From assembly GCA_024958795.1 (NCBI GenBank), contig JANXHP010000011.1, forward strand, positions 1 through 36,411: DNA of 36,411 nt. The letters are read 5' to 3'. Position 1 is the first letter of the stretch, and every line of letters starts with the position of its first letter. This document shows positions 17,887 to 36,286 of this stretch, piece after piece. Both the position numbers and the translations under genes were made by a program. This stretch comes from Candidatus Poseidoniaceae archaeon. Lineage in GTDB: Archaea; Thermoplasmatota; Poseidoniia; Poseidoniales; Poseidoniaceae. The notes beneath the pieces are model-generated. The model was not told the origin of the DNA, ran no database searches, and worked only from the letters and a program-made list of their open reading frames with translations.

Positions 17887-20800
17887 ATGAATGCAGTGAA
17901 GCGTTTCTCAGCGACCACGATATTGGTAATTCTAATCTTCTCTAGTTTTTCTCCATTATTAGCACAGTCAAGTGCTGAGAACTCTACAGGAATTGAGATT
18001 TTACATACTGCAATTAATCCAGCAAATAACAATACATATTACCTGTTAAGTGAGGCTTCATGGACTGATTCTGCTGAAGCAGCACGTGGTTTAGGTGGAT
18101 TTTTAGTCACCGTAGATGATGCTGAAGAAAACGATTGGCTTTTCGATACATTCGCAGCATTTGATAACCAAACAAGGCATCTTTGGATTGGATTATCAGA
18201 TACAGATGTTGAAGGAGAATTCCACTGGCATGATGGAACTCCATTCTTTTACAGAAGTTGGGGCGAAGGTCAACCAGGAGAAGGTGGAGATGAGGATTAT
18301 GTCCATATTACAGGGACTAATATGGGGAATATCCAACCAGGATACTGGAATGATTTAGAAGATGCACCACAGTATTTCCCAGTTTATGGAGTTGTAGAGG
18401 TTGGACCTGGTGCAGACTATGCACTTCGTTTTGATGGAATTGATGATTATGTTGAGGCAGAAACAGATACTGACTTTGAACTAAATGGTTCATTGACTAT
18501 TTCCGCAGATATTTATCCATACTCAAATACTGGAACTCAATTTATTGCAATGCTTGGTGACTATGGCTATGGAATGTATCTAAACAATGGACATCTTGCA
18601 TACGCAGATGAATATTCTCTTTCCAAGCATCCAGTTACTGATGTTAATGTTACCGTACCAACAATGCAATGGTCAAATGTGGCAGTTGCATTGACTGAAG
18701 GAGAAGGTGGCTCATTTTTCATTGATGGACAATTAGTAGGCTCATTTGATTCTTCACAAAGTAATATTCCAGCAGGTGATTTTGGTTCAAACTCTTGCTT
18801 TGAATCAGGCTCAGACTGTGATGAATTCATTATTGGAAAAATGGGTGCTGGATGTGATTGTAATTACTTTGAGGGCTTAATAGACAATGTTAGAGTCGAC
18901 AAGATTGATTATTCAGGTTTAAGCAATACCACTGATCCAAATAATGGAACGGTAACACAAACACTTTTGATTCCAGAAGTAAACGATGACACAGTTTCTA
19001 TTTGGGAATTTACTGAAGGTATTGGAGATTTAACAGTTGATCAACTTAGTAGAAATGGAACAATTCATGGAGCCTCATGGGTAATGCCTGATGGAACAAT
19101 TGTAGCTCAAGCAAAGGAATTGTTCAATGGACAAACTCTCAATGGTATCAATGCAGATGCAGGCGACCATTTACTCTATTTTGTAACCTTACCAGAATAT
19201 ACAAGGTCTTTTGATCTCTCTATGTGGTCTTGGTCCATTAGAGATGATGGCCAAACTTCAGCCTACACTGTATATTCCGGACATGATTCAGTTCCGAGCG
19301 CTTGGGATAATTACGCAAAAATTGACGCTGAATGGGGCTATATGTACGAATCTATGTCATGGCCAGAGCAAGGAGTTTGGTGGTTTGTTTTAGTGGCAAA
19401 TGAAGATGTTGAAGATTTGAGTATTTCCCCATATTGGGATGTTGCAGAAGCACCACCTTCCTTGGATGAAATGATTCAATTGAACGATGGTATCGCTGTT
19501 ACTGGCCAGTCGATAGAAGGTAATTTCTGGCAGGGAGAGGGGGATGATTTCGATAATGGAGTATTGTATTATTACGTAAATGTTTCAGAACCATTATCAG
19601 ATTTGAGAATAAAAACATATGGCGGACGTGGTAATGCCGATTTAGCAATTTCATATGGAGGACCTCCAGATCCATTTGATCAATTTATGGATTTTGAATT
19701 CATGGAATCAGGAAGTAGTGCTGATGGAAGACAAATTGGGATACCAGATGATGACTCAAATGGTCAATCATCTAGTAAAGAAGATTGGTCAACGACTCAA
19801 GGAAACGATGAGGAAGTTCATCTGTATAATGTAGATGTAGGTACATATTATGTCATTGCATATACATATTTTAGAACTAATGATTTTACAATTATTGCGG
19901 ATTTCACTTATCCTCCAGAAAATATTGATTCCGATGATGCGATTGAATTATTCCCTGGAGTTGAATACGGCCCTATGAGTGGATATGATGGCCTGGACCA
20001 GTTTTTCAAAATTGATGTTCCAGCGGGAACGGAGAGATTAGAAGTTGATTTGTTTGATGGTGTTGGAGAAGCAGAATTATTCATGAGGCATGAAAGTGCA
20101 CCTACACCTACAACCTTTGACATTAGTTCTAACGCACCTGGAGCTGGTGATAAGATTGGATTTAATGATCCAACTCCCGGAGTTTGGTATATATTATTAG
20201 ATTCAGAATATGTTTTCAGTGGAGTTAGCATTGTAGCAGATTTCAAAGAAAGATATGTTTGGTCATATGATGGAACACCGATTGAATTATTCAACAAAGA
20301 AGAAATTTCTGGAATTGAAGCGCCAAAAGGTGAAGAATTATTTTTCTTCCTTGAATTAGAAAATCCAGGAGAGTATTTGGAAATCTCAACTTATGGCGGA
20401 GATGGAATCTTAAATTTTGAAGTTGAAGGGCAAACTTACTCTTTTGACTTTGATGATTTTGAAATCGGTGAAGGCATTACCGATGGTCGCCAAGGTCGAC
20501 CAAATGGCAATGGAGATGGATTAACTTCACAAGATATTACAATTGAGTCAAGTGGAGATGGAACATCACAAAGCATAATGATTTGGAATCCTTCAAATGG
20601 TCGCTTTGATATCACTTTAACAGCAGTTTCTGATATCAGTGAAGTATCTATTATTGCCTCTTGGGTAGAGTCTCAACTACCACCAATTGAACCGGGGCCT
20701 CCGGAACCAGTTAATGTGGAATCATGTAAGGAAACAGCCGAAATATCCTTCCGAGAAGTTGACACAAATAGGGATGGAGTAATTCAAGAAAATGAGTTTA

Positions 20801-21624
20801 GAGTAATAGATGATAATTCTGGAGATTTTGACTTTGATGAGATTGATATCAATTCAGATGGTGAAATTGAGTTTGCTGAAGTAGTTCAAGAATTGTGTAC
20901 TTGTGATAATGAATTATTCAATAATTTTGAGCAGTTAGCGGATGGTGGCTTTAGAGTCTCAATTGAAGACTTTGGTTCACTTGAATGGTTTAACGAATAC
21001 AATTTCCTAATCATGGATAACAATGATGATGGATTTATTGACTTTGAAGAGGTTGAAATTGCAGCATTATTGTGTGACACTACATTTAGCGCATTTGATA
21101 GTGATGGGGATGGAGTTGTTGATGAAAAGGATGCATTCCCAGATGATCCAAATGAGACCGTCGATAGCGATGGCGATGGAGTAGGTGATAATGCCGACAT
21201 CGCACCAAGCGTTGCTAATGATCTGCTATATACAACAGGTGGAATTGCCTTACTAGTTCTAGCTGGATTACTGATATTCTTCCTCAAAGGTGGAATGGGC
21301 AGTAGTGGATTGACCTCAAGTTCAAGTCAACATTGGGATGATGAGCGCCATATTGCAATGCAAGATGAGATGCTTGGACTGAATGATTCTTTTGACAAAG
21401 AGATTCCCGAATTAGATAGGAATGTAAATCCTTTCGGAGAACCAATAGAAACTGTTGTTAGTACACCTGTTGAAGAACAACTGGCGAGTATTGAGCCACA
21501 AACATCCGCTGCTCAGAACATTGCAGCATCTGAAGCTTCCAATGAACTATTAGGAATTGACTCAACTCAACCACCGCAGAAATTGAATGAGATTTCTGGA
21601 GTTCTAGAAGATCTATTCGATTAA
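17887..21624 (+). CDS. Giant multidomain surface protein (C-type lectin, LamG, PPC, EF-hand, TSP3)
   Basis: This 1245-residue cell-surface protein starts with a signal peptide (residues 1-27, KRFSATTILVILIFSS to LLAQ). Domains in order: C-type lectin (about 35-175, with HLWIGLSDTDVEGEFHWHDG, GQPGEGGDEDY and YWNDLED); a LamG/concanavalin-like domain (177-340, ALRFDGIDDYVEAE to GLIDNVRVD); three pre-peptidase C-terminal-like beta domains (about 529-675, 682-788, 795-935) that share SADGRQIG/TDGRQGRP motifs; EF-hand loops (945-1068, DTNRDGVIQENEF, DINSDGEIEFAEV, DNNDDGFIDFEEV); thrombospondin type-3 calcium repeats (1070-1107, DSDGDGVVDEKDAF); one membrane helix (1113-1133); and a 112-residue acidic, polar cytoplasmic tail. 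Probably calcium-dependent carbohydrate binding or adhesion. No C-terminal sorting signal is seen, because the helix is internal. Confidence 0.88.
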   Translation: MNAVKRFSATTILVILIFSSFSPLLAQSSAENSTGIEILHTAINPANNNTYYLLSEASWTDSAEAARGLGGFLVTVDDAEENDWLFDTFAAFDNQTRHLWIGLSDTDVEGEFHWHDGTPFFYRSWGEGQPGEGGDEDYVHITGTNMGNIQPGYWNDLEDAPQYFPVYGVVEVGPGADYALRFDGIDDYVEAETDTDFELNGSLTISADIYPYSNTGTQFIAMLGDYGYGMYLNNGHLAYADEYSLSKHPVTDVNVTVPTMQWSNVAVALTEGEGGSFFIDGQLVGSFDSSQSNIPAGDFGSNSCFESGSDCDEFIIGKMGAGCDCNYFEGLIDNVRVDKIDYSGLSNTTDPNNGTVTQTLLIPEVNDDTVSIWEFTEGIGDLTVDQLSRNGTIHGASWVMPDGTIVAQAKELFNGQTLNGINADAGDHLLYFVTLPEYTRSFDLSMWSWSIRDDGQTSAYTVYSGHDSVPSAWDNYAKIDAEWGYMYESMSWPEQGVWWFVLVANEDVEDLSISPYWDVAEAPPSLDEMIQLNDGIAVTGQSIEGNFWQGEGDDFDNGVLYYYVNVSEPLSDLRIKTYGGRGNADLAISYGGPPDPFDQFMDFEFMESGSSADGRQIGIPDDDSNGQSSSKEDWSTTQGNDEEVHLYNVDVGTYYVIAYTYFRTNDFTIIADFTYPPENIDSDDAIELFPGVEYGPMSGYDGLDQFFKIDVPAGTERLEVDLFDGVGEAELFMRHESAPTPTTFDISSNAPGAGDKIGFNDPTPGVWYILLDSEYVFSGVSIVADFKERYVWSYDGTPIELFNKEEISGIEAPKGEELFFFLELENPGEYLEISTYGGDGILNFEVEGQTYSFDFDDFEIGEGITDGRQGRPNGNGDGLTSQDITIESSGDGTSQSIMIWNPSNGRFDITLTAVSDISEVSIIASWVESQLPPIEPGPPEPVNVESCKETAEISFREVDTNRDGVIQENEFRVIDDNSGDFDFDEIDINSDGEIEFAEVVQELCTCDNELFNNFEQLADGGFRVSIEDFGSLEWFNEYNFLIMDNNDDGFIDFEEVEIAALLCDTTFSAFDSDGDGVVDEKDAFPDDPNETVDSDGDGVGDNADIAPSVANDLLYTTGGIALLVLAGLLIFFLKGGMGSSGLTSSSSQHWDDERHIAMQDEMLGLNDSFDKEIPELDRNVNPFGEPIETVVSTPVEEQLASIEPQTSAAQNIAASEASNELLGIDSTQPPQKLNEISGVLEDLFD

Positions 21625-21632
21625 GTTAGAAA

Positions 21633-24600
21633 TCACTTCAAGCGTTTTCCACCAATTCGAATTTCAGTCTTTAATGGCATTTGCTGTTCCCATGCAAATT
21701 CCTTGACTATTCTCCATCCTTTTTCAGAGCCTTCATAATCCTTGACTTCAATAATTTTATTTCTTGTATTTGCTTTGAAAGCAGCAACTGGCTCTGCATT
21801 CTTGAATACTAAATAGGCAGAACCAAAACCAAACTTTTCCTTTAATATTCCAGAGAAGTATGGTGCAATAGGGTCGCTAGGAGGTAAAACGAAATCACGA
21901 ATCGGATTAATATCAGCAGATTTTTCTAGTAATTCTTTACGACCCCAGCACACTTCATGTAAGTCCTCAATTAGGAATCCTTTAATCAAAGTACCATCCT
22001 CTTCAAACGAGTTTAGTACTGCCTTCAATTCTTCTGGCTTGAATGGTGTTCCTGCTAAACGTAACAATTGTTTCAGCGTAATTACCGGGTATTCAGCCAC
22101 CAACTTACGTAAATATTCTCTACGAAGTTCAATTCTATCAATATCATCTCTTTGAGTCACTGTTCTATATCCACCTCTAAAGTCTTGAACAATATGGCCA
22201 GATTTAATTAGAGGTTGTAATAATTTTCTAAATTGTGATTGAGTGAGTGCATGCCTTTCCTTGAAAATTTTCGGGTCAGAATTTACTGAGAAGAATTCAA
22301 CAATATCCCATAACTCCTCATCAGGTGGTAACCCTCTAATTGTCAATAGGTCTCTAAAGTGTTCAAATGTGGCCCAAACTTGATGCCCTCGCATATTGAT
22401 TCCTTGATGTAAACGGTGAGCGCTAGCCATACTCTTTAGGTCAACACGATATACTGAAGCCCTACCTCTCAAAGCAAAATCATCTCGTACTTCAGGAACA
22501 TTTCTTAATGCTGCAATTTCGTTTTCTAATCTTGAATCTTGGTGTAAATTATGCTGATAGAATAGAACCTTTTCAGCAATTTCTCTCGGCTGTGGGTCAA
22601 CGATTCCTCCGCGAATCATTCTTTCACCAGCGATTTTGAAACCAATTGCCTCTAGTGATTTTCTTGTATTTTCATCGATTGAGGAAACAGGTTCACTATT
22701 AAAATTGGATAACACTGCCACATCTACTAATTGGTCGGAATGGTTCTCAAGTAAGACTTCGAAAGCTTCACAAAACTCATCTAAGTACGCTGTGGGAACA
22801 TGCAAATCCTTGATTTCAAGATAATCATTTACTTTGAACATCAATACCTTTCCAACAGGATCTACTCCTTTGAAAACAGGCAGATACCACCCTCGCTCAA
22901 GAACACTTCTAACCTCCCAAATGAATCGTGAAACATATGGGTCGGATTGAGTCAATATTCGCATTTGCCTATCTTCTCTTCTTGGCCGCTTTAGCAGTTG
23001 AACCTCTTCTGCCATACAATAGAATGCCTCTGGGTCTGGCACTAATGCCATTACTTTGGAGATACGACCAGACTTTTCCAAATTCATCAATGCAACAGTT
23101 AAATCTTCATAGGAACGAGTAACATAGAAACGCAATGTGTTTGCTTTTACTGGACCCATTCTACTGATGACATCAACCAAAGCATCCTCGAAATCCATTG
23201 CCTCGTAGACATCATGCACCCGATGGAAAAGAGATAACCTTCTACGCCTTCCAATAACATCTTCAAATTGCTTTACCATCATCATTTGACGTTCAAGATT
23301 TGAGATTGCATTCTTCAAATCTCTTTGCAATGCTTTGAAATCTTCTCCCTTTGGATAATTATCTAACAACTCAATTCTAGTAAGATTCTCATTAGCAGGA
23401 ACCTTACTCAATATTTCTTCTTCCATTGGTCCAATCCATGGCTCTGGCTTTAATCCTAGAAGCATAGGGATCGTTTTCTTTGTAGTATAACCTATACGAT
23501 TATGCAATAATCTTCCCATTATCACATCAGAATCAAGTTGAACATCTTTCCAATCTTTGAAATTGAAATCCTTAACTCTATACAGCAACTCCTGCTGCTT
23601 TTGGAATATTACATGAGAATTGAAAGCATCAAAGCAATTTTCATACTGCTTGAATGATTTTTCCAAAACCAGATTTTGCACCCAACGGTATTCAACGACA
23701 TCTTCAGAACCACCCGTTAGTCTATGCTCATCAACCCTAAGGATATATTCTGCATCATCGGTTTGACGATAGAATCCAACGGAGATGACATTTCGTGATT
23801 CTAATTCATGAATAATTCGGTCCACCATATCTCTTGGGAATGGCAGGCGAGCATCCATTTCATCTCCTGTTTGAGGACCTTCTGAGCCTAGCATTTCAAT
23901 AATTTTCACCCTAAGTGCTTCATGCGGATCACTGAGTTGTCTCTCTTCCCATTCAACAGGTGTACGGCCATCGAATTTAGTTACAATTTTGTAAGTAATC
24001 CCTCTAGTATGTATTTCGCGTAAATCATCTGCTTCTTTTCCACCATTGGTCGACAAACAACCGAGGGTTCCATGAATCTCAGCCATATATGGGCTGAACC
24101 ATTTACCATCAATATCACAACCAGTTCCATCAATTTTTGTTATTCTGTTATTTCCTGCTAACTCTTCAACCCATTTCCGAATAACATCAAGTTCAACATC
24201 TTGTAATTTTTCTTTATACAGAGGATTATGGAATTCCTTATCCAGTCCACCACCATGACTCATCAAATTGAATAATTCTTCAGCATTTGTTGGAATAGGT
24301 GCCTTGTCTAGATAATATCTGTTTAGTTGTTCACTGGATAATTCAGTTGCAAGAGAACGAGTACCTAATAGACGGCGTAAAATTTCCGGATCGATATCTT
24401 TAACCAAGAAGGCCCGAGTTTTCATAGCCATCAAGTCTTCAAATGCAGACATGAATAATGACATTCCAAGCCGCGAAGGAACTGTAACTTTATTGTGAAC
24501 GATTCTTGCATCACCTGTTACACACAGTTCCAAAAATTGGTTTAGGCTAGTGATGTCAATATCTCCAAACATAATTTCATTCTTAGCTTCACGCATCAAT

Positions 24601-26909
24601 AAACTATCGTCCATTGTTCTATGTTTCTTCAGCAGCGCTTCAGCCTTCTGTTGAAATTGTTGTGGACTTACTTCTTCAGCCCCTATTCTTCGCGGGATAA
24701 TCATTGAACGTCCCGCAACTTCTCTAAATCTCTTAGTAAAAATTTGAGTATTGACAATATATCTTTCAATCACTTCAACGTGATTATTTAAACGGAAGGC
24801 CTTGTACATTTCACCTGGGTCAACTTCTCTCGATGTCTTTAGCAGAAGACCATTTTCATCATAGGATAATTCTAGAACTGCAATACCATTAGATTCAGCT
24901 AATCCTGCCATAAAGTATCCCAATGCAGTATTGAATCCCCGTCCTCTACAAGTGGTAATCAAATAGGTTGGTTGCCCTCCAGAGACAACTTGCTCAACCA
25001 GTATTTTATTCGGGTCTGGAACTTGGAAAGAATCTATAGAATGCTCTTCTAAGTGGCGGGCAATTGCATTTGCAGCATCTGAGCCAAGACCATATGCATC
25101 ATGTAATAACACCCTTGGGTCTTGTTCACGACGTAGCGCTACTGAACAGTGCCCAATCAAATCGAGTAGAGATTTTGATAATTCTCTAGAGCGAGATCTT
25201 GCTTCACCTGACCAGGATGGTACAGTAGGACGATATCCTGTAACAGATTGAACATTTACTCTTGTACCTTGAATATTTGTCACTCTATATGTAGAGCCAC
25301 CTAACAAAATCACATCTCCACCACGTAGATTAGAAACGAATGAACCAGATAACTGGCCTAATATTGAACCTTCAGCATTGAATACTAGGAATGAATTATC
25401 CATTGCAATTGTACCGACATTGGTATAGTAAATCATCCTTGAATATCCACGTTTTCCATATACATTATCTTCCCAATCAACCCAAACTCTTCGCTCTTCT
25501 TCCAACATGTCAAGGACATCAATGAAATCATCATAAGGGAAATTTCTGTATGACCATGCATTGGTAATTACTTCAAACGCCTCATCGATATCAATCTCAT
25601 TGATTATCACCAATCCAATCATAAATTGAGCAACAACATCTAAACTGTTTTGAGGGAAATCAAGAAGATCCATTTCTCCTGTTTGGATTGCTGCTTGTAG
25701 TGCGGCCAATTCAAGCAAATCATCGACACTTGAAGGTAGGAATCTTGCCCTTGGAATACCACCTACATGGTGCCCTGCACGGCCAATTCGCTGCAATGCA
25801 GTTGAGATGTCACCAGGGCTTCCAATTTGCAGAACTAAATCAACAGAACCAATATCTATACCCATTTCAAGAGAAGAAGAAGTGACGACAGCACGCAGAT
25901 GTCCATGCTTCAATTTCTTTTCCACATCCAATCTTATTTTCTTATCCATCGAACCATGATGGCCTGCGACTAAGTCTCCTAAATGAGGTCGCAATTTTAG
26001 AACAATATTCTCAGTCATTTTTCTTGTATTGGCAAATACCAGCGTGGTGGTATGGGCTGTAATCAAGTCTGCAATGGCCTCAATATTCTTATCAAGTATC
26101 TTCATTACCGAGAGATCGCTGAATTTAGGATCGGTGATTAGAATATCTAAATCTAATTCTCTAGCACCTGAAATTTTAGCGATATTGATTTTTGTTCCTG
26201 GACCATCTTCATCATCACCGCTAGAGACGAGGTATTCTGCAACAGTTTCAAGTGGTTCCATTGTAGCAGAAATACCAATTCTTTGAACAGGAATGGTCAG
26301 TAATGTATCTAGGTAAGACAATGTTAGTGCAAGGTGAACACCTCGCTTAGAAGGGACTAATGAATGCAATTCGTCAATAATCATAAATTCAACAGCATTC
26401 ACTATTGGCTGGAATCTTGGTGATGTGATTGCAATAGCCAGCGATTCAGGTGTAGTGATTAGAATATGGGGTGGATTTCTAAGCATTTTTTGGCGTTCAT
26501 TTTGTGGGGTATCGCCAGTTCTCAATCCGACTTTTATTTCTTGAGCTCTATCGGGTAGATAATTATCAGAAATTTCCTTTAATGGCCCTATTAGATTTCT
26601 TTGAATATCGTTCGCCAATGCTTTGATTGGAGAAATATATACACAGTGTACCTTTTTCTCCAATTTTCCTTTGAGCGCTAATCTAACTAGGTTGTCTATT
26701 ACAGTTAGGAAAGCAGTCAAAGTTTTTCCTGAACCTGTAGGTGAACATAGCAACAAATGTTCCTTGTCCATAATAGCAGGAATTGCTAATTTTTGAGGTC
26801 TTGTAAAGTCATCAAATTTATCTTTAAACCAGTTGCGGACGGGTGGACATAACTTCTCCAACAATTCCTCAGTTTCCAAAGGATTCTCAAGATAGTGTAT
26901 GTCAGCCAT
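21633..26909 (-). CDS. lhr: Large Lhr-type superfamily 2 helicase, extended
   Basis: Lhr helicases unwind branched and RNA-DNA duplexes 3' to 5' and act in repair. The 1758-residue protein has the Q-motif-like FTRPQKLAIP (35-44), Walker A CSPTGSGKT (55-63), motif Ia SPIKALAND, motif Ib TTPESLAI, motif II DELH (179-182), motif III SATM (214-217), the Lhr-type SSLEMGIDIGSVDLVLQIG (345-363), and motif VI QRIGRAGHHVGG (373-384). Winged-helix and barrel domains typical of the Lhr core follow to about residue 850. The remaining half is an extension: archaeal Lhr is usually near 900 residues. The far C-terminus (about 1580-1700) resembles the tandem winged-helix/AlkZ-like C-terminal region of bacterial Lhr, as inference only. 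The ATG at 26909 has no strong Shine-Dalgarno. The gene converges with the surface protein. Confidence 0.92.
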   Translation of the reverse strand: MADIHYLENPLETEELLEKLCPPVRNWFKDKFDDFTRPQKLAIPAIMDKEHLLLCSPTGSGKTLTAFLTVIDNLVRLALKGKLEKKVHCVYISPIKALANDIQRNLIGPLKEISDNYLPDRAQEIKVGLRTGDTPQNERQKMLRNPPHILITTPESLAIAITSPRFQPIVNAVEFMIIDELHSLVPSKRGVHLALTLSYLDTLLTIPVQRIGISATMEPLETVAEYLVSSGDDEDGPGTKINIAKISGARELDLDILITDPKFSDLSVMKILDKNIEAIADLITAHTTTLVFANTRKMTENIVLKLRPHLGDLVAGHHGSMDKKIRLDVEKKLKHGHLRAVVTSSSLEMGIDIGSVDLVLQIGSPGDISTALQRIGRAGHHVGGIPRARFLPSSVDDLLELAALQAAIQTGEMDLLDFPQNSLDVVAQFMIGLVIINEIDIDEAFEVITNAWSYRNFPYDDFIDVLDMLEEERRVWVDWEDNVYGKRGYSRMIYYTNVGTIAMDNSFLVFNAEGSILGQLSGSFVSNLRGGDVILLGGSTYRVTNIQGTRVNVQSVTGYRPTVPSWSGEARSRSRELSKSLLDLIGHCSVALRREQDPRVLLHDAYGLGSDAANAIARHLEEHSIDSFQVPDPNKILVEQVVSGGQPTYLITTCRGRGFNTALGYFMAGLAESNGIAVLELSYDENGLLLKTSREVDPGEMYKAFRLNNHVEVIERYIVNTQIFTKRFREVAGRSMIIPRRIGAEEVSPQQFQQKAEALLKKHRTMDDSLLMREAKNEIMFGDIDITSLNQFLELCVTGDARIVHNKVTVPSRLGMSLFMSAFEDLMAMKTRAFLVKDIDPEILRRLLGTRSLATELSSEQLNRYYLDKAPIPTNAEELFNLMSHGGGLDKEFHNPLYKEKLQDVELDVIRKWVEELAGNNRITKIDGTGCDIDGKWFSPYMAEIHGTLGCLSTNGGKEADDLREIHTRGITYKIVTKFDGRTPVEWEERQLSDPHEALRVKIIEMLGSEGPQTGDEMDARLPFPRDMVDRIIHELESRNVISVGFYRQTDDAEYILRVDEHRLTGGSEDVVEYRWVQNLVLEKSFKQYENCFDAFNSHVIFQKQQELLYRVKDFNFKDWKDVQLDSDVIMGRLLHNRIGYTTKKTIPMLLGLKPEPWIGPMEEEILSKVPANENLTRIELLDNYPKGEDFKALQRDLKNAISNLERQMMMVKQFEDVIGRRRRLSLFHRVHDVYEAMDFEDALVDVISRMGPVKANTLRFYVTRSYEDLTVALMNLEKSGRISKVMALVPDPEAFYCMAEEVQLLKRPRREDRQMRILTQSDPYVSRFIWEVRSVLERGWYLPVFKGVDPVGKVLMFKVNDYLEIKDLHVPTAYLDEFCEAFEVLLENHSDQLVDVAVLSNFNSEPVSSIDENTRKSLEAIGFKIAGERMIRGGIVDPQPREIAEKVLFYQHNLHQDSRLENEIAALRNVPEVRDDFALRGRASVYRVDLKSMASAHRLHQGINMRGHQVWATFEHFRDLLTIRGLPPDEELWDIVEFFSVNSDPKIFKERHALTQSQFRKLLQPLIKSGHIVQDFRGGYRTVTQRDDIDRIELRREYLRKLVAEYPVITLKQLLRLAGTPFKPEELKAVLNSFEEDGTLIKGFLIEDLHEVCWGRKELLEKSADINPIRDFVLPPSDPIAPYFSGILKEKFGFGSAYLVFKNAEPVAAFKANTRNKIIEVKDYEGSEKGWRIVKEFAWEQQMPLKTEIRIGGKRLK

Positions 26910-30775: not shown

Positions 30776-32392
30776 TCATTCTTCATCTTTAGATGGAACC
30801 AATCTTCGCCACAGCACTACTGCAGCCCTTTCAGTCAAATCTTTTTCTTCTTTCTTCCAAGTTCTTGGGTGTAATAAAATAACAGCTGTTAGCAATTCCA
30901 AACGACCAAACCACATCAATATTGATGTGATTATTAATCCCCAAGAATTCATTCCAGACCAAGTACTAGACGGGCCAAATTCTCCAAGTGCTGGACCCGT
31001 ATTACCCAGGGAAGATGCTACAACAGAAATTATACTTTCAAAGGATTCATTAGGCATACATATCGCTAGCAATATGCAAGATATTGCAAACAGACCAATC
31101 CATACAAATAACATCCCTACTATCAGACCAAGTTGCTGTCTTTCAACAACTTCACCATTCATCCGAATACGTTCTATCCTTCTTGGTTGTCCAATTCTTA
31201 CAATTTCACGCATTGCTACCTTGAAAGCTAAATTAATTCTCAGTAATTTCAATCCTCCACTTGTAGAACCAGCACAGGCGCCAATAATCATGAGTGTTAG
31301 GAATATTATTTGTGTAACAATCGGCCAAGCACCATAATCAGTTGAAGAATATCCAGTAGAAGTTCCGATAGAAATAACATTGAATATACTGTATCTTAAT
31401 GAGTTACCAAGGGATATCTCAGTAGCCATTAGTGCTAATACCATTGCGCATATAGCAACTACCAAATACACTAGATAATTATTAAATTCTTCATCTTTAG
31501 ATGCTCTTTTGAATTCCCTCATACAAAATAGCCAAATTAGGGTAAAATTAACGCCTGCAATAAACATAAAGATGATGATAATACTTTCAATCGTCATAGA
31601 ATCATAATATCCTATGCTCGCATCTCGAGTTGAAAATCCACCAGAAGCAACTGTTGTAAGTGCATGATTAATGGAATCAAATAATGTCATTCCACCTAAA
31701 AATTTCAACAATAACATTTCAACTATTGTTAACACAATATACAAACTCCATAATGCTAATGCAGTTTGCTGTAATTTAGGCTTCAATCTAGATAGAGATG
31801 GTCCAGTCAATTCAGCCCGCGCTAGTGCCATTCCACCACCAATAATTCTTGACAAGACCATCATTCCAAGCATGATTATTCCCATTCCACCAAGCCATTG
31901 AGTTATTGATCGCCAAAGTAACAAACCTCGAGGTTGCGCGTTAATACAATCCATAGGACCAGGCACACAGTTAGGACTCATATTGTGAGAAATAACAGTT
32001 GCACCAGTAGTAGTAAATCCTGACATTGATTCAAACCAAGAATTGACAGCTCCACGCGCAATATCAACTAATCCAGCACCTTCAGTAAAGGGCCCCACAA
32101 ACACCCCGCCAAACCAAAACGGTAAACTACCAATAAAAACAGCAAGTGGCCATACTAGAGCAACTGCAGCAAAGGCTTCCTTATCACGTAATCTTTCACT
32201 GGTATTTGTCCTCGTCCATAGAGTTAACATGGTAATTCCAAGAATTAGAGAAATAATACTAGGTATTGCAAATGAGATCAATGCTAACTCAATTGAATCC
32301 AAAAAAGCTGTAGCAATACCAGATGCAGCAAGTGGTATCGTTAACGCAATTAGCGTCCACCCCAATATCATGCTCAATACATCAGTACGCAT
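30776..32392 (-). CDS. trkH: Potassium uptake channel subunit TrkH
   Basis: TrkH forms the K+ pathway of the Trk/Ktr uptake system. The protein of about 538 residues has many membrane helices and four pore loops with the expected filter glycines: SGFTTTGATV (about 124-133), TTVASGGFSTRD, SIGTSTGYSSTD and SSLGNTGPALGE. This layout, with two hydrophobic segments before the first pore loop, is TrkH-type. The frame reaches a GTG at 32401, where GTGA overlaps the trkA stop, but GGTGTGA sits before the in-frame ATG at 32392, so that is preferred. It is co-transcribed with trkA, its cytoplasmic gating partner, as in most Trk operons. Confidence 0.95.
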   Translation of the reverse strand: MRTDVLSMILGWTLIALTIPLAASGIATAFLDSIELALISFAIPSIISLILGITMLTLWTRTNTSERLRDKEAFAAVALVWPLAVFIGSLPFWFGGVFVGPFTEGAGLVDIARGAVNSWFESMSGFTTTGATVISHNMSPNCVPGPMDCINAQPRGLLLWRSITQWLGGMGIIMLGMMVLSRIIGGGMALARAELTGPSLSRLKPKLQQTALALWSLYIVLTIVEMLLLKFLGGMTLFDSINHALTTVASGGFSTRDASIGYYDSMTIESIIIIFMFIAGVNFTLIWLFCMREFKRASKDEEFNNYLVYLVVAICAMVLALMATEISLGNSLRYSIFNVISIGTSTGYSSTDYGAWPIVTQIIFLTLMIIGACAGSTSGGLKLLRINLAFKVAMREIVRIGQPRRIERIRMNGEVVERQQLGLIVGMLFVWIGLFAISCILLAICMPNESFESIISVVASSLGNTGPALGEFGPSSTWSGMNSWGLIITSILMWFGRLELLTAVILLHPRTWKKEEKDLTERAAVVLWRRLVPSKDEE

Positions 32393-32397
32393 TGCAA

Positions 32398-33807
32398 TCA
32401 CACCTTGAATCGCTTTTCTAACTCTGCTACTCGCTCTGGATTACAGAACATAGTTAATCGGTCACCTTCAATAATCAATTTATTAGGAGAAGGCCTCATA
32501 TTTTCCCACTTATTGACATCTACCTGCCTTTGAATAAATGCTATTCGCATCCACTCAGGGAAATTCGCTTCAGATATTTTCATTCCACAGAATTTTGTAG
32601 AATCCTTTACTGGTAATGAGATTCCAATAATTTCAGGAATTGTAGACAATAATGCATATGCACCCGTGGTTTTTGTGTGGATTAGAGCTAATAGATTATC
32701 AACAGCAACTCGCTTTCTATCAACTGCAAAGGTAATACCCATACGTTGAGTAACTTTGACCAAATCTGCATCGTATAGCATCAAACCAGTTCTTTGCACA
32801 CCCATGTCACTAGCCAACAATGCGGCTGCAATACATGCGTGGTCATCTTTCAAAGCTGCAATTGCAATATGGTGCTCAGAAATACCAATTTCCTTCAGCA
32901 TTTCTCTATCTAAATGGTCCCCGTGAATCACTTCAATATTCGGATTTGCACCAGTCTTTGTTCCTGAAAAATTGTTAGCCTTTTGTAGATCTCTTTCAAT
33001 CATTGTCACCGAAGCACCCGATGAAAGCCACTTATCTGCAACTCGTTGACCAATCTTATTAGCGCCAATAATTGCAACCTTGGGAGAAGATGGGAAATTT
33101 TTTGGCTGATGTCCAAATATTTTCAAAATATGGTTGAAACTTGAAGTTCCTGTAGTTGCTACAGCGATTTTGTCATTTGGAACAAGAACAAATTCTCCAT
33201 CTGGCACGATACTTTTCTCACCTTCACGCTTTACACCAATAATCAATGGTAACTCACCATCGATATTGTCTGCAGCCTCCTTTAAACTCAAGAAAATTAC
33301 ATCCGTTGCATCATTTGTAACATCCAATTCAATTACAAAAGCATCATGTCCAAAGGGAATAACATCTTCAATTCCTGGAGTTTTCAAACCTAGATGAAGG
33401 CGATCGATTGCCCCATCAAGTGGATTTACTACATGGTTTACCTTTGCCCACTCTACCAAATATCCATTATTCTGTTCCTCAACAAACTTGCTGTCCCTAA
33501 CACGACAAATTGACAACAAGTCTTTGCCGCCCTTAGAAGCGCTGGTATGTTCTGCTAATGTACATGCTAACAAATTTCTTTCATCAGAGTTAGTTACTGC
33601 AATAAACACTTCCGCTTCTACAATTCCAGCCTCAATCAATTTCTCTCTTGAAATAAAATCACCATGAATCACAAGTGCATCGAGGTTTTGAGCATTTTTC
33701 ACAGCTCTAGAATCTGAATCAACTAGTACAACATCCAAATCTTCAGCCCTCAATGCTTTGGCCAAATCAGTACCAACTCTTCCCGCTCCACCTATTATTA
33801 CTCTCAT
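32398..33807 (-). CDS. trkA: Trk K+ regulatory protein TrkA (two RCK domains)
   Basis: TrkA is a cytoplasmic ring protein that binds NAD(H) or ATP and opens the TrkH pore. The 469-residue protein has two Rossmann RCK-N domains, with GGAGRVGTDLA (residues 6-16) and IGANKIGQRVA (about 248-258), each followed by an RCK-C domain (about 140-225 and 385-469). The acidic ribose ligand is Asp30 of VVLVDSD in the first, and Glu of MIERD in the second. The tandem arrangement is the full-length bacterial/archaeal TrkA layout. ATG 33807 follows GGTGA, whose TGA is the transglutaminase stop codon, giving a coupled start; trkH overlaps the other end. Confidence 0.96.
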   Translation of the reverse strand: MRVIIGGAGRVGTDLAKALRAEDLDVVLVDSDSRAVKNAQNLDALVIHGDFISREKLIEAGIVEAEVFIAVTNSDERNLLACTLAEHTSASKGGKDLLSICRVRDSKFVEEQNNGYLVEWAKVNHVVNPLDGAIDRLHLGLKTPGIEDVIPFGHDAFVIELDVTNDATDVIFLSLKEAADNIDGELPLIIGVKREGEKSIVPDGEFVLVPNDKIAVATTGTSSFNHILKIFGHQPKNFPSSPKVAIIGANKIGQRVADKWLSSGASVTMIERDLQKANNFSGTKTGANPNIEVIHGDHLDREMLKEIGISEHHIAIAALKDDHACIAAALLASDMGVQRTGLMLYDADLVKVTQRMGITFAVDRKRVAVDNLLALIHTKTTGAYALLSTIPEIIGISLPVKDSTKFCGMKISEANFPEWMRIAFIQRQVDVNKWENMRPSPNKLIIEGDRLTMFCNPERVAELEKRFKV

Positions 33808-33811
33808 GATA

Positions 33812-35374
33812 TCACCAAAATGTTTCTGCGTATTTCTTCACCTGATATGGAGAACCACCTGTTAACTCAAAATCACCAGTTGCATAACTTCGTTCTCGTT
33901 CAATACCATTAGTTTGAGTTATTGGATGATAGAAATTATTCAATTTTGTTGCAGTTTCATCAGACTCTTCAATCCAATCAATATAGCCAGTAGGTGTATT
34001 CAGTAACCACTTATTGTTGACGACATCAACTGCACCATTAACAAAACAAGAATTTCGTTCAATATTATTTTCATCACACCATTCATCACTCATCGGTAGT
34101 TGAATATAGCCCCAAGCATGTGCCTCCCATGTCTCATAGTTCATATCGGTCAAAGCACCGAAAACAAACCATCCCGGTATGCCTTTCACACGAAGTAGGC
34201 TAAGGAAGGCATTGGTTTGCTCATCACAATCTCCTTGACCATCATTTAGGCATGAGGGGCCACTTCTAGCAACAACTGGAGCAAATGAATCATAAGCAAT
34301 TTTTTCGTGCAGATAATCAAATGCTGCTCTTGAAAAAGCGTATGCATTATCTTGCATTCCCTCTGGTATAGATGCACTAATTATTTCAGCAGTTGAGATA
34401 ACAATGTCAGCCTGTGAATTTATCGCATAACCAGCAGGAGAGCCTCTGTTATACCACTTATCATCATTAAACTCATAGAACTTTTGCCCATCATCTCTAT
34501 TTTGAATGTCGGAAAAATTCCCACTATTATCAACACCAATTCCATTTTCCATTCCAGCGATTCTCGAATCAACTCTCGCTCCATTGTGCCATGAATATGA
34601 TGTTGAGTGAACTCCAACAGAATATGTGAAACTACTGGATTCACCAGGGCCTAAATTGACCAATACTTTTACGCAATTACTGACAGAACAATAATCATCA
34701 CCAATTCCTATACCAGGCCACCAGATTTCATGTCCGTTTGTAGTGACTAATTTTTCAGAAGCAGATCTTACTGGAAAACCACTGGTTGGAACAGCATATT
34801 CTTCCCCACCGAAACTAATACTAATCGCAGTAGTTATTTGGATTGAAGTCGGAATTTCCGCAGAATCTCCATTTGTATATTCAAATCCATAAGGTGAGCC
34901 CTGTGTAGAACTGACGGCGGGGGGTATTGCCAAATTTTCCATCATGTATCCACTCGGCCCAGAGTTCGAGACAAATACGGTTTTCTCAAGAGTGTATGAA
35001 GCTTCTATCGGGTACAAGTGATATGGCGAAACAGCAGATTGGATGTATTCTTGAATGCCTGCCCATTGAGCAATAACTTGCTCTCTCGCCTGTGGAGATA
35101 ACATAATGAAGGCCACCAGTGATAACATTACAAAACTACGAAAACGATTTTTCTTTCTTTTCAATATGTTTTTTGTTCTCCCAGTATGAGTTTGTACAAA
35201 CCCTTTCTCGGTTGGTTTTGTAGTCATTTTGTAGGAAGTTGCTAGTGATCCTTGATTGAATTGTTGCTCAAGTCTGAAATTACTTGAATTCAAATTTGCA
35301 AGAACGCGTCCACAGGAATAGCAGATTGAATCTCCCGATTCAGTGGTCGCTCTACAATAAGGGCAAGAACCCAT
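33812..35374 (-). CDS. Membrane-anchored transglutaminase-like protein with zinc ribbon
   Basis: From ATG 35374 the 520-residue protein has a cytoplasmic zinc ribbon (Cys4, Cys7, Cys18, Cys21; CPYC and CYSC), a polar linker and a basic patch (ILKRKKNRFRS). One membrane helix (about 79-93, FVMLSLVAFIMLS) leads to a large outer part. A beta-rich region (about 120-320) is followed by a transglutaminase-like core with Cys383 in DGQGDCDEQTNAF, His419 in WEAHAWGYIQ and Asp450 in GAVDVVNN: the usual Cys-His-Asp triad of papain-like transglutaminases and proteases. The substrate is unknown; it may cross-link or cleave a surface protein. ATG at 35407 and GTG at 35425 are alternatives. The stop overlaps the trkA Shine-Dalgarno. 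Confidence 0.85.
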   Translation of the reverse strand: MGSCPYCRATTESGDSICYSCGRVLANLNSSNFRLEQQFNQGSLATSYKMTTKPTEKGFVQTHTGRTKNILKRKKNRFRSFVMLSLVAFIMLSPQAREQVIAQWAGIQEYIQSAVSPYHLYPIEASYTLEKTVFVSNSGPSGYMMENLAIPPAVSSTQGSPYGFEYTNGDSAEIPTSIQITTAISISFGGEEYAVPTSGFPVRSASEKLVTTNGHEIWWPGIGIGDDYCSVSNCVKVLVNLGPGESSSFTYSVGVHSTSYSWHNGARVDSRIAGMENGIGVDNSGNFSDIQNRDDGQKFYEFNDDKWYNRGSPAGYAINSQADIVISTAEIISASIPEGMQDNAYAFSRAAFDYLHEKIAYDSFAPVVARSGPSCLNDGQGDCDEQTNAFLSLLRVKGIPGWFVFGALTDMNYETWEAHAWGYIQLPMSDEWCDENNIERNSCFVNGAVDVVNNKWLLNTPTGYIDWIEESDETATKLNNFYHPITQTNGIERERSYATGDFELTGGSPYQVKKYAETFW

Positions 35375-35427
35375 ATATTTCCGGCTATGCGGGAGTTGTA
35401 TAACCATTGCTAGCGGAAAGCCCACGA

Positions 35428-35499
35428 AAGTGCTTATTTGCTATGATTTACAAAATATCGGATAAATAATCAACAGTATCCTTTGTAAATAAGTGCTTA
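35428..35499. repeat. Direct and inverted repeats upstream of the transglutaminase gene
   Basis: AAGTGCTTA occurs at 35428-35436 and 35491-35499. Between them a perfect 9-base inverted repeat, ATTTACAAA (35446-35454) and TTTGTAAAT (35482-35490), has a 27-base spacer. The cluster lies in the gap between the 254-residue membrane protein and the transglutaminase-trk operon and probably holds its promoter and operator sites. Confidence 0.5.
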
Positions 35500-35521
35500 C
35501 TTAGTTACAATAATAATTAGT

Positions 35522-36286
35522 TCACTCTTCTTCTCCAATAGTGCCTTTTGAACGCTTTTCCCTCTCATTTGAGGCCCAAATTCTTCGCAATCTTCGCCTT
35601 GCAGGTTTTGGTATAGATGCCCAAATCCAATCCTCTATTTTTGAGTCAACAATCATCATCATCGAACCGATAAATATCCATCCAAATGGATCAAAAATTG
35701 AATAATATATTGTGGTTAACAATGCAATTCTCCATGCAGTTGACCGTATAACAGCCCCCCATTTTTTCCCATTCAACATCATATATCCCTGATGTGCAGT
35801 AATCATTGCTTCACATCTTGGGGTTAGTATTGCAAGTGCTGCAATAGTTAGTACCATTTTAAAAGAAAAAATCTCATCATCAAGTTGAATATATCTAAAA
35901 ATTAAGACCATCGCAGTCATTCCACCGATTGCAAGCCCTAGAGCCCAACCACTAGTAGGGTGAGATCCACCCTTCCTCACTCTCTCTCTTCGCAGCAGCA
36001 AGTGGACTGCAATAGATAGCATTAGCGCTAATAATAGCAAAGAAATTGGATGGGGAATTTTAGCCCCATCACCATTGTTTGCATATTCAACATACGGCAT
36101 GAATAACGAACTATCGCAAAAGGTTGCATAAAACATTCCAACAATAATTCCCCAAAATATTTGATTCCAAGCAGTTGGTAAATCATAAAATCCAGCATAC
36201 TTTGTCATCATCCCCCTCCAACCCAGTGTCATACCGATTAGAGCAGAGAATGTGGCGACCTGAAATAACACTGGTGCAGATACCAT
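35522..36286 (-). CDS. Polytopic membrane protein, function unknown
   Basis: The 254-residue protein has about seven hydrophobic helices: near residues 4-23, 41-57, 80-97, 113-130, 142-157, 182-196 and 199-217. A basic loop (LLRRERVRKGG) follows the third helix. The C-terminus (IPKPARRRLRRIWASNEREK) is strongly basic and likely cytoplasmic, ending in acidic GEEE. No transporter or enzyme motif is recognised. The ATG at 36286 is preceded in frame by a stop (TGA at 36305-36307), and no Shine-Dalgarno is visible. It reads in the same direction as the transglutaminase-trk genes, 147 bases upstream of the chosen transglutaminase start. The last 125 bases of the window (36287-36411) show no supportable gene. 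Confidence 0.7.
   Translation of the reverse strand: MVSAPVLFQVATFSALIGMTLGWRGMMTKYAGFYDLPTAWNQIFWGIIVGMFYATFCDSSLFMPYVEYANNGDGAKIPHPISLLLLALMLSIAVHLLLRRERVRKGGSHPTSGWALGLAIGGMTAMVLIFRYIQLDDEIFSFKMVLTIAALAILTPRCEAMITAHQGYMMLNGKKWGAVIRSTAWRIALLTTIYYSIFDPFGWIFIGSMMMIVDSKIEDWIWASIPKPARRRLRRIWASNEREKRSKGTIGEEE

Follow-up and report, generated by a model that had tools for sequence, protein, structure and literature searches.

A predicted membrane-anchored transglutaminase-like protein encoded between a PrsW-like gene and trkAH in Poseidoniales archaea

The window, a 36,411-nt stretch from a Candidatus Poseidoniaceae archaeon, is a single contig of a fragmented 1.88-Mb genome. Three genes follow one another head-to-tail on its minus strand: one for a transglutaminase-like protein (hereafter TGase; 33812-35425, longest ORF 537 aa from GTG), trkA (32398-33807; 469 aa, two TrkA_N domains and TrkA_C) and trkH (30776-32401; 541 aa from GTG). 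Upstream of the TGase and on the same strand lies an unannotated membrane gene, which we call up254 (35522-36286), whose product has about six hydrophobic segments. The 147 nt between the two (35375-35521, minus strand, measured up to the Met18 start of the TGase discussed below) are, by eye, a probable promoter or leader region. A first reading made from the sequence alone (the sequence-only reading) had placed the coupled TGase at 32392-33812, a span that essentially covers trkA and not the TGase ORF itself; its account of the two junctions stands. The TGase stop codon (TGA, 33812-33814) does lie inside the Shine-Dalgarno-like site of trkA (GGTGAT, 33811-33816, minus strand), which ends 4 nt ahead of the trkA ATG (33805-33807), and trkA runs into the start of trkH by four bases, GTGA at 32398-32401 being common to the stop of one and the start of the other, given the GTG start for trkH. 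By domain content the two trk genes are ordinary members of the Trk K+ uptake system (TrkA gating ring, TrkH channel), with two RCK units (TrkA_N/TrkA_C) in TrkA and the TrkH family domain in TrkH (Pfam, 7.3e-51); the NCBIfam TrkA and TrkH equivalogs were matched with scores under their cut-offs.

The TGase carries a Transglut_core domain (PF01841, residues 358-443, 6.8e-10) that scores 39.6 bits against a curated cut-off of 23. Comparison with relatives makes Met18 (35372-35374) its likely start; most of them begin at the equivalent residue, with MGSCPYC or a similar sequence. Reading inward from the GTG at 35425, approximately 30 nt are shared without change between the window and two relatives (L033 and L094), while the DNA before them diverges (window approximately 35375-35425, minus strand); they could encode a small N-terminal extension or belong to a conserved leader. 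Residues were compared in a set of 54 proteins, 53 from fetched loci plus that of the window. The four zinc-ribbon cysteines (C21-x2-C24...C35-x2-C38; 35312-35365, minus strand) are kept in 53, the sole exception being a truncated ORF; Pfam ribbon models matched the TGase under cut-off (Zn_ribbon_3, E 0.0059). A single hydrophobic helix (residues ~96-112; 35090-35140, minus strand) comes after a Lys/Arg-rich stretch, a flank that suggests a predicted N-in/C-out topology. By simple hydropathy this helix passes in 36 of the 54 relatives, the window protein falling under the threshold, and it is also present in a low-confidence structure model. In the catalytic core (34025-34228, minus strand), Cys400 (34226-34228) and Asp467 (34025-34027) are found in 54/54 and His436 (34118-34120) in 53/54, with one unread X; the assignment of Asp467 relies on its place in weak models, where it ends the strand that follows the one with the His. 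The equivalents C383/H419/D450 are invariant over 17 sequences, three of them from family f3 of the same class, and five outer cysteines (246, 251, 392, 450 and 460) vary little or not at all in the 54 relatives.

Domains and residue conservation thus bear out the architecture given in the sequence-only reading, that is, a zinc ribbon, one membrane helix and a Cys-His-Asp core. The structure prediction that it had proposed gave no reliable model: two AlphaFold runs with four-sequence alignments reached mean pLDDT values of 39.9 and 47.6. A single-sequence search of the PDB returned no match, and a profile search gave 3isr as its best, a weak match (E 0.0014) to the core only. Archaeal members of the transglutaminase-like superfamily were reportedly described by Makarova, Aravind and Koonin in 1999. 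The TGase shares with the PF01841 superfamily a core over the cut-off and the Cys-His-Asp set, and the superfamily has archaeal membrane-anchored members; it differs in adding the zinc ribbon, an outer region of ~240 residues and the extra invariant outer cysteines, and in having neither an NCBIfam model nor a solved full-length relative. Searches of phage records and viral contigs found no relatives. A second transglutaminase core of the same genome (L001, G000:C28:6671-7033) lies in a 2916-codon open frame away from this locus.

Across the order, a search of 292 genomes found a TGase match in 162 and a TrkA match in 246. One weak TGase match (G224, 30% in a 1859-aa frame) was dropped as a non-orthologue, leaving 161 orthologues, and in 152 of these the TGase lies directly before trkA, with no counterexample. 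Coordinates were listed for 148 genomes, of which 139 showed same-strand adjacency, and closer searches added 13 more (G202, G069, G212, eight g19 genomes, G093 and G243); in the remaining nine (G161, G118, G039, G103, G152, G114, G254, G163 and G160) one gene lies at the end of its contig or is truncated by it. The operon layout is real and order-wide, and the neighbourhood survey disposes of the possibility, raised in the sequence-only reading, that the pairing occurs in this genome only. A TGase-TrkA fusion, suggested by TGase frames of ~1020 aa, was ruled out, trkA having its own frame in those genomes. No TGase match was obtained for eighteen genomes of family f1; a search of all 18 for TrkH succeeded in only four, which suggests that the locus as a whole is missing from most of these bins. 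How closely the two genes are joined depends on the family. The TGase-trkA gap is -4 to 12 nt in 28 of 34 loci of family f1 (the rest include unsure trkA starts) and 39-52 nt in all 20 loci of family f2, and the stop within the Shine-Dalgarno site or a 4-base overlap recurs in several f1 genera; tight coupling characterises family f1.

The pairing is part of a larger conserved block. All 54 TGase loci continue with trkA and trkH. RFC-large stands beyond trkH in 50, GlyS in 47, and up254 precedes the TGase in 52, the missing cases being contig ends or ends of the fetched stretch (for up254, two contig starts). The block thus extends over at least six genes throughout the order. Two of them, GlyS and RFC-large, lie on the opposite strand and are not obviously related to TGase or Trk; since they keep the same order, the adjacency of TGase and trkA is best taken as inherited synteny, which says little of a shared function. 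Seven genera of family f2 (g12, g13, g14, g16, g18, g20 and g21), each sampled by one fetched locus (seven loci, L076-L082), have up254-trkA-trkH-RFC-GlyS intact and the TGase absent. In a tree of TrkH, RFC-large and GlyS, rooted at the midpoint only, they form one clade, for which one change suffices, and because family f1 and the other f2 genera carry the TGase, its single loss in this clade is the simplest reading. Trk was kept after that loss and so does not need the TGase, which is neither required by Trk nor always found with it, as a subunit of the system would be. The TGase-less loci retain the PrsW-like gene next to trkA, at a distance of 67-115 nt; up254 would therefore have a use without the TGase and is not strictly tied to it.

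Outside the order the TGase and trkA part company. Weak matches to the TGase core were found phylum-wide in 137 of 292 genomes, the order's own included, and in 40 outside-order genomes searched (of 87; six of the 40 without a TrkA match) trkA adjoins the TGase in none. Four of the outside genomes (G450, G470, G360 and G322) have both genes on one contig, ~60 to 500 kb apart, and in the others with a TrkA match they are on different contigs. Family f3, which we take to be Marine Group III, and family f43 have the same zinc ribbon-helix-TGase architecture with no trkA alongside, and the Cys, His and Asp are also kept in the TGases of outside families. In f3 loci (L096-L100) the zinc-ribbon TGase is directly followed by a GNAT acetyltransferase and then by TFB; a profile search found no up254 match in this family, though the TGase is present.

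The neighbour that does recur is up254. A profile of the Poseidoniales protein matched the ORF that immediately precedes the TGase in 5 of 20 outside loci fetched, and a profile made from those five ORFs had a match in 61 of 80 outside genomes (the 87 less the seven with the weakest TGase matches). In 21 of the 80, belonging to eight families, the homologue is directly before the TGase, defined as on the same strand and at most 1.1 kb ahead of the TGase core. Among the 21 outside loci for which both genes were fetched, the two ORFs overlap or are at most 36 nt apart in 19, the other distances being 170 and 364 nt; in 38 of the 59 outside genomes with both genes listed, the two are non-adjacent. 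In Poseidoniales the up254-TGase gap is 42-162 nt, and the TGase is nearer to trkA, with which it is often coupled. From this distribution, the pairing of TGase and up254 appears both older and more widespread than that of TGase and trk.

No convincing family match for up254 exists in Pfam or NCBIfam. With eight members, PF13367, the PrsW family, gave no match at E<=1, and the same model finds other loci in the same genomes; up254 as a true PrsW by this profile is ruled out. The relationship emerges through the outside homologues, which hhalign aligns with PF13367-type PrsW proteins over ~200 columns (96.8%, E 2.3e-10), the EExxK position included, and with the Poseidoniales up254 (98.8%, E 9.7e-17), whereas the latter compared directly with PrsW reaches 0.9%; the PrsW set had 15 rows, of which 3 are probably wrong ORFs that were left in. 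EExxK is the catalytic motif of PrsW. It is present in 12 of these 15 fetched ORFs and in 11 of 25 outside up254 rows, 11 more keeping one E and the K and three neither; none of the 54 Poseidoniales up254 rows examined shows it, one of them being unreadable (X) there. The Poseidoniales protein differs from PF13367 members in lacking both the motif and a direct profile match. By profile comparison up254 is probably a remote PrsW relative whose Poseidoniales version appears to have lost EExxK; because there is no Pfam or NCBIfam fit, the motif is partial and the match to PrsW exists only via outside members, we call it PrsW-like rather than PrsW.

Covariation was assessed over 39 loci with all six genes after removal of the GlyS and RFC distances (one locus per genus, 11 genera). 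The residual correlation of TrkA and TrkH, 0.77, exceeds the values of all other neighbour pairs (0.45-0.65), among them TGase-TrkA and TGase-TrkH (0.52 each), TrkA-up254 (0.65), TrkH-up254 (0.60) and TGase-up254 (0.45, the lowest). The distance test therefore recovers the known TrkA-TrkH pair and does not favour either Trk or up254 as the TGase's partner; over the 39 loci the TGase has no TrkA-specific covariation in excess of background, and the outcome also counts against up254 as its partner.

We favour, with a probability of about 0.58, the explanation that the TGase is an ecto-enzyme of the transglutaminase/papain fold whose ancestral partner was the PrsW-like protein, the pair having later been placed before trk in Poseidoniales. 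It is supported by the conservation of Cys-His-Asp, the pairing with up254 in eight outside families and the lack of trkA adjacency outside the order. Weighing against it are the persistence of up254 beside trkA where the TGase is gone, the closer spacing of the TGase to trkA in Poseidoniales, the 38 outside genomes with the two genes apart, family f3 with a TGase but no up254 match, and the low TGase-up254 covariation. The zinc ribbon of the TGase would lie in the cytoplasm, joined by the one membrane helix to a beta-rich region on the outside and, also outside, a catalytic domain whose triad is intact. The enzyme would most likely cleave or transamidate envelope proteins outside the membrane, and its ancestral working partner would have been the product of the neighbouring PrsW-like membrane gene on the upstream side. 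The Poseidoniales ancestor would have acquired the arrangement with the pair ahead of trkA-trkH; translational coupling of the TGase to trkA would have followed in one family, the two being probably co-expressed from a common transcript. The link with trk would thus probably be one of lineage history, perhaps with co-expression. That history alone made neighbours of TGase, up254 and Trk, in a slowly rearranging genome and with no working connection, seems to us unlikely. It would account for a block of at least six genes that includes unrelated ones on the opposite strand, for the loss of the TGase with the rest undisturbed and for a covariation that points to no partner, but the up254-TGase pair recurs in eight further families, its ORFs often overlapping, and this is hard to explain in this way.

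The sequence-only reading had looked to Trk, proposing that the TGase ties envelope state to K+ uptake. As an accessory Trk regulator the TGase would sense or modify the outer face or the envelope and adjust uptake accordingly, and an adjacency of 152/161 with no counterexample, as well as the stop within the Shine-Dalgarno site or the 4-base overlap in several f1 genera, would be expected of such a protein. However, unrelated GlyS and RFC-large hold their positions equally well, seven genera keep Trk without the TGase, the linkage is missing from 40 outside-order genomes, where up254 is the older neighbour, the f2 gap is 39-52 nt and covariation with TrkA stays at background, so that the proposal is left without specific support and we regard it as unlikely. 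That the outer domain is structural, serving in binding rather than catalysis, has a precedent in the inactive TGase domains of other surface proteins (PMC3482391), but Cys, His and Asp are retained by practically every one of the 54 relatives as well as by outside families, which makes it highly improbable. A bolder version of the favoured explanation, which we hold to be quite doubtful, is that a PrsW-like protein and an ecto-transglutaminase form a two-gene module across Thermoplasmatota, its Poseidoniales form having become a pseudoprotease wired into trkAH for joint control. If true, envelope processing and potassium uptake would be controlled together in abundant surface-ocean archaea.

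No TGase-like Trk subunit is described in the literature searched (TrkH, TrkA/potassium/archaea, Marine Group II and Poseidoniales, with transglutaminase), which covered few subscription papers and agrees with the sequence-only reading that no described Trk system has such a partner. Within the same coverage, and in the accessible parts of PMC3482391 and PMC10318531, neither the TGase-trk nor the PrsW-TGase pairing is described. The useful result is a conserved pair, found in eight outside families and in both families of the order, of a membrane-anchored TGase and an unannotated PrsW-like membrane protein that has no name in Pfam or NCBIfam. It offers a testable lead on the processing of archaeal envelope proteins, with a natural TGase-loss clade for comparison. 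Elsewhere in the window, 21633-26909 (minus strand) encodes a 1758-aa Lhr-type helicase in which no Pfam family is matched at E<=0.001 over the C-terminal ~940 residues that follow DEAD_assoc, and 17887-21624 (plus strand) a 1245-aa protein of surface type that matches C-type lectin, PPC and EF-hand.
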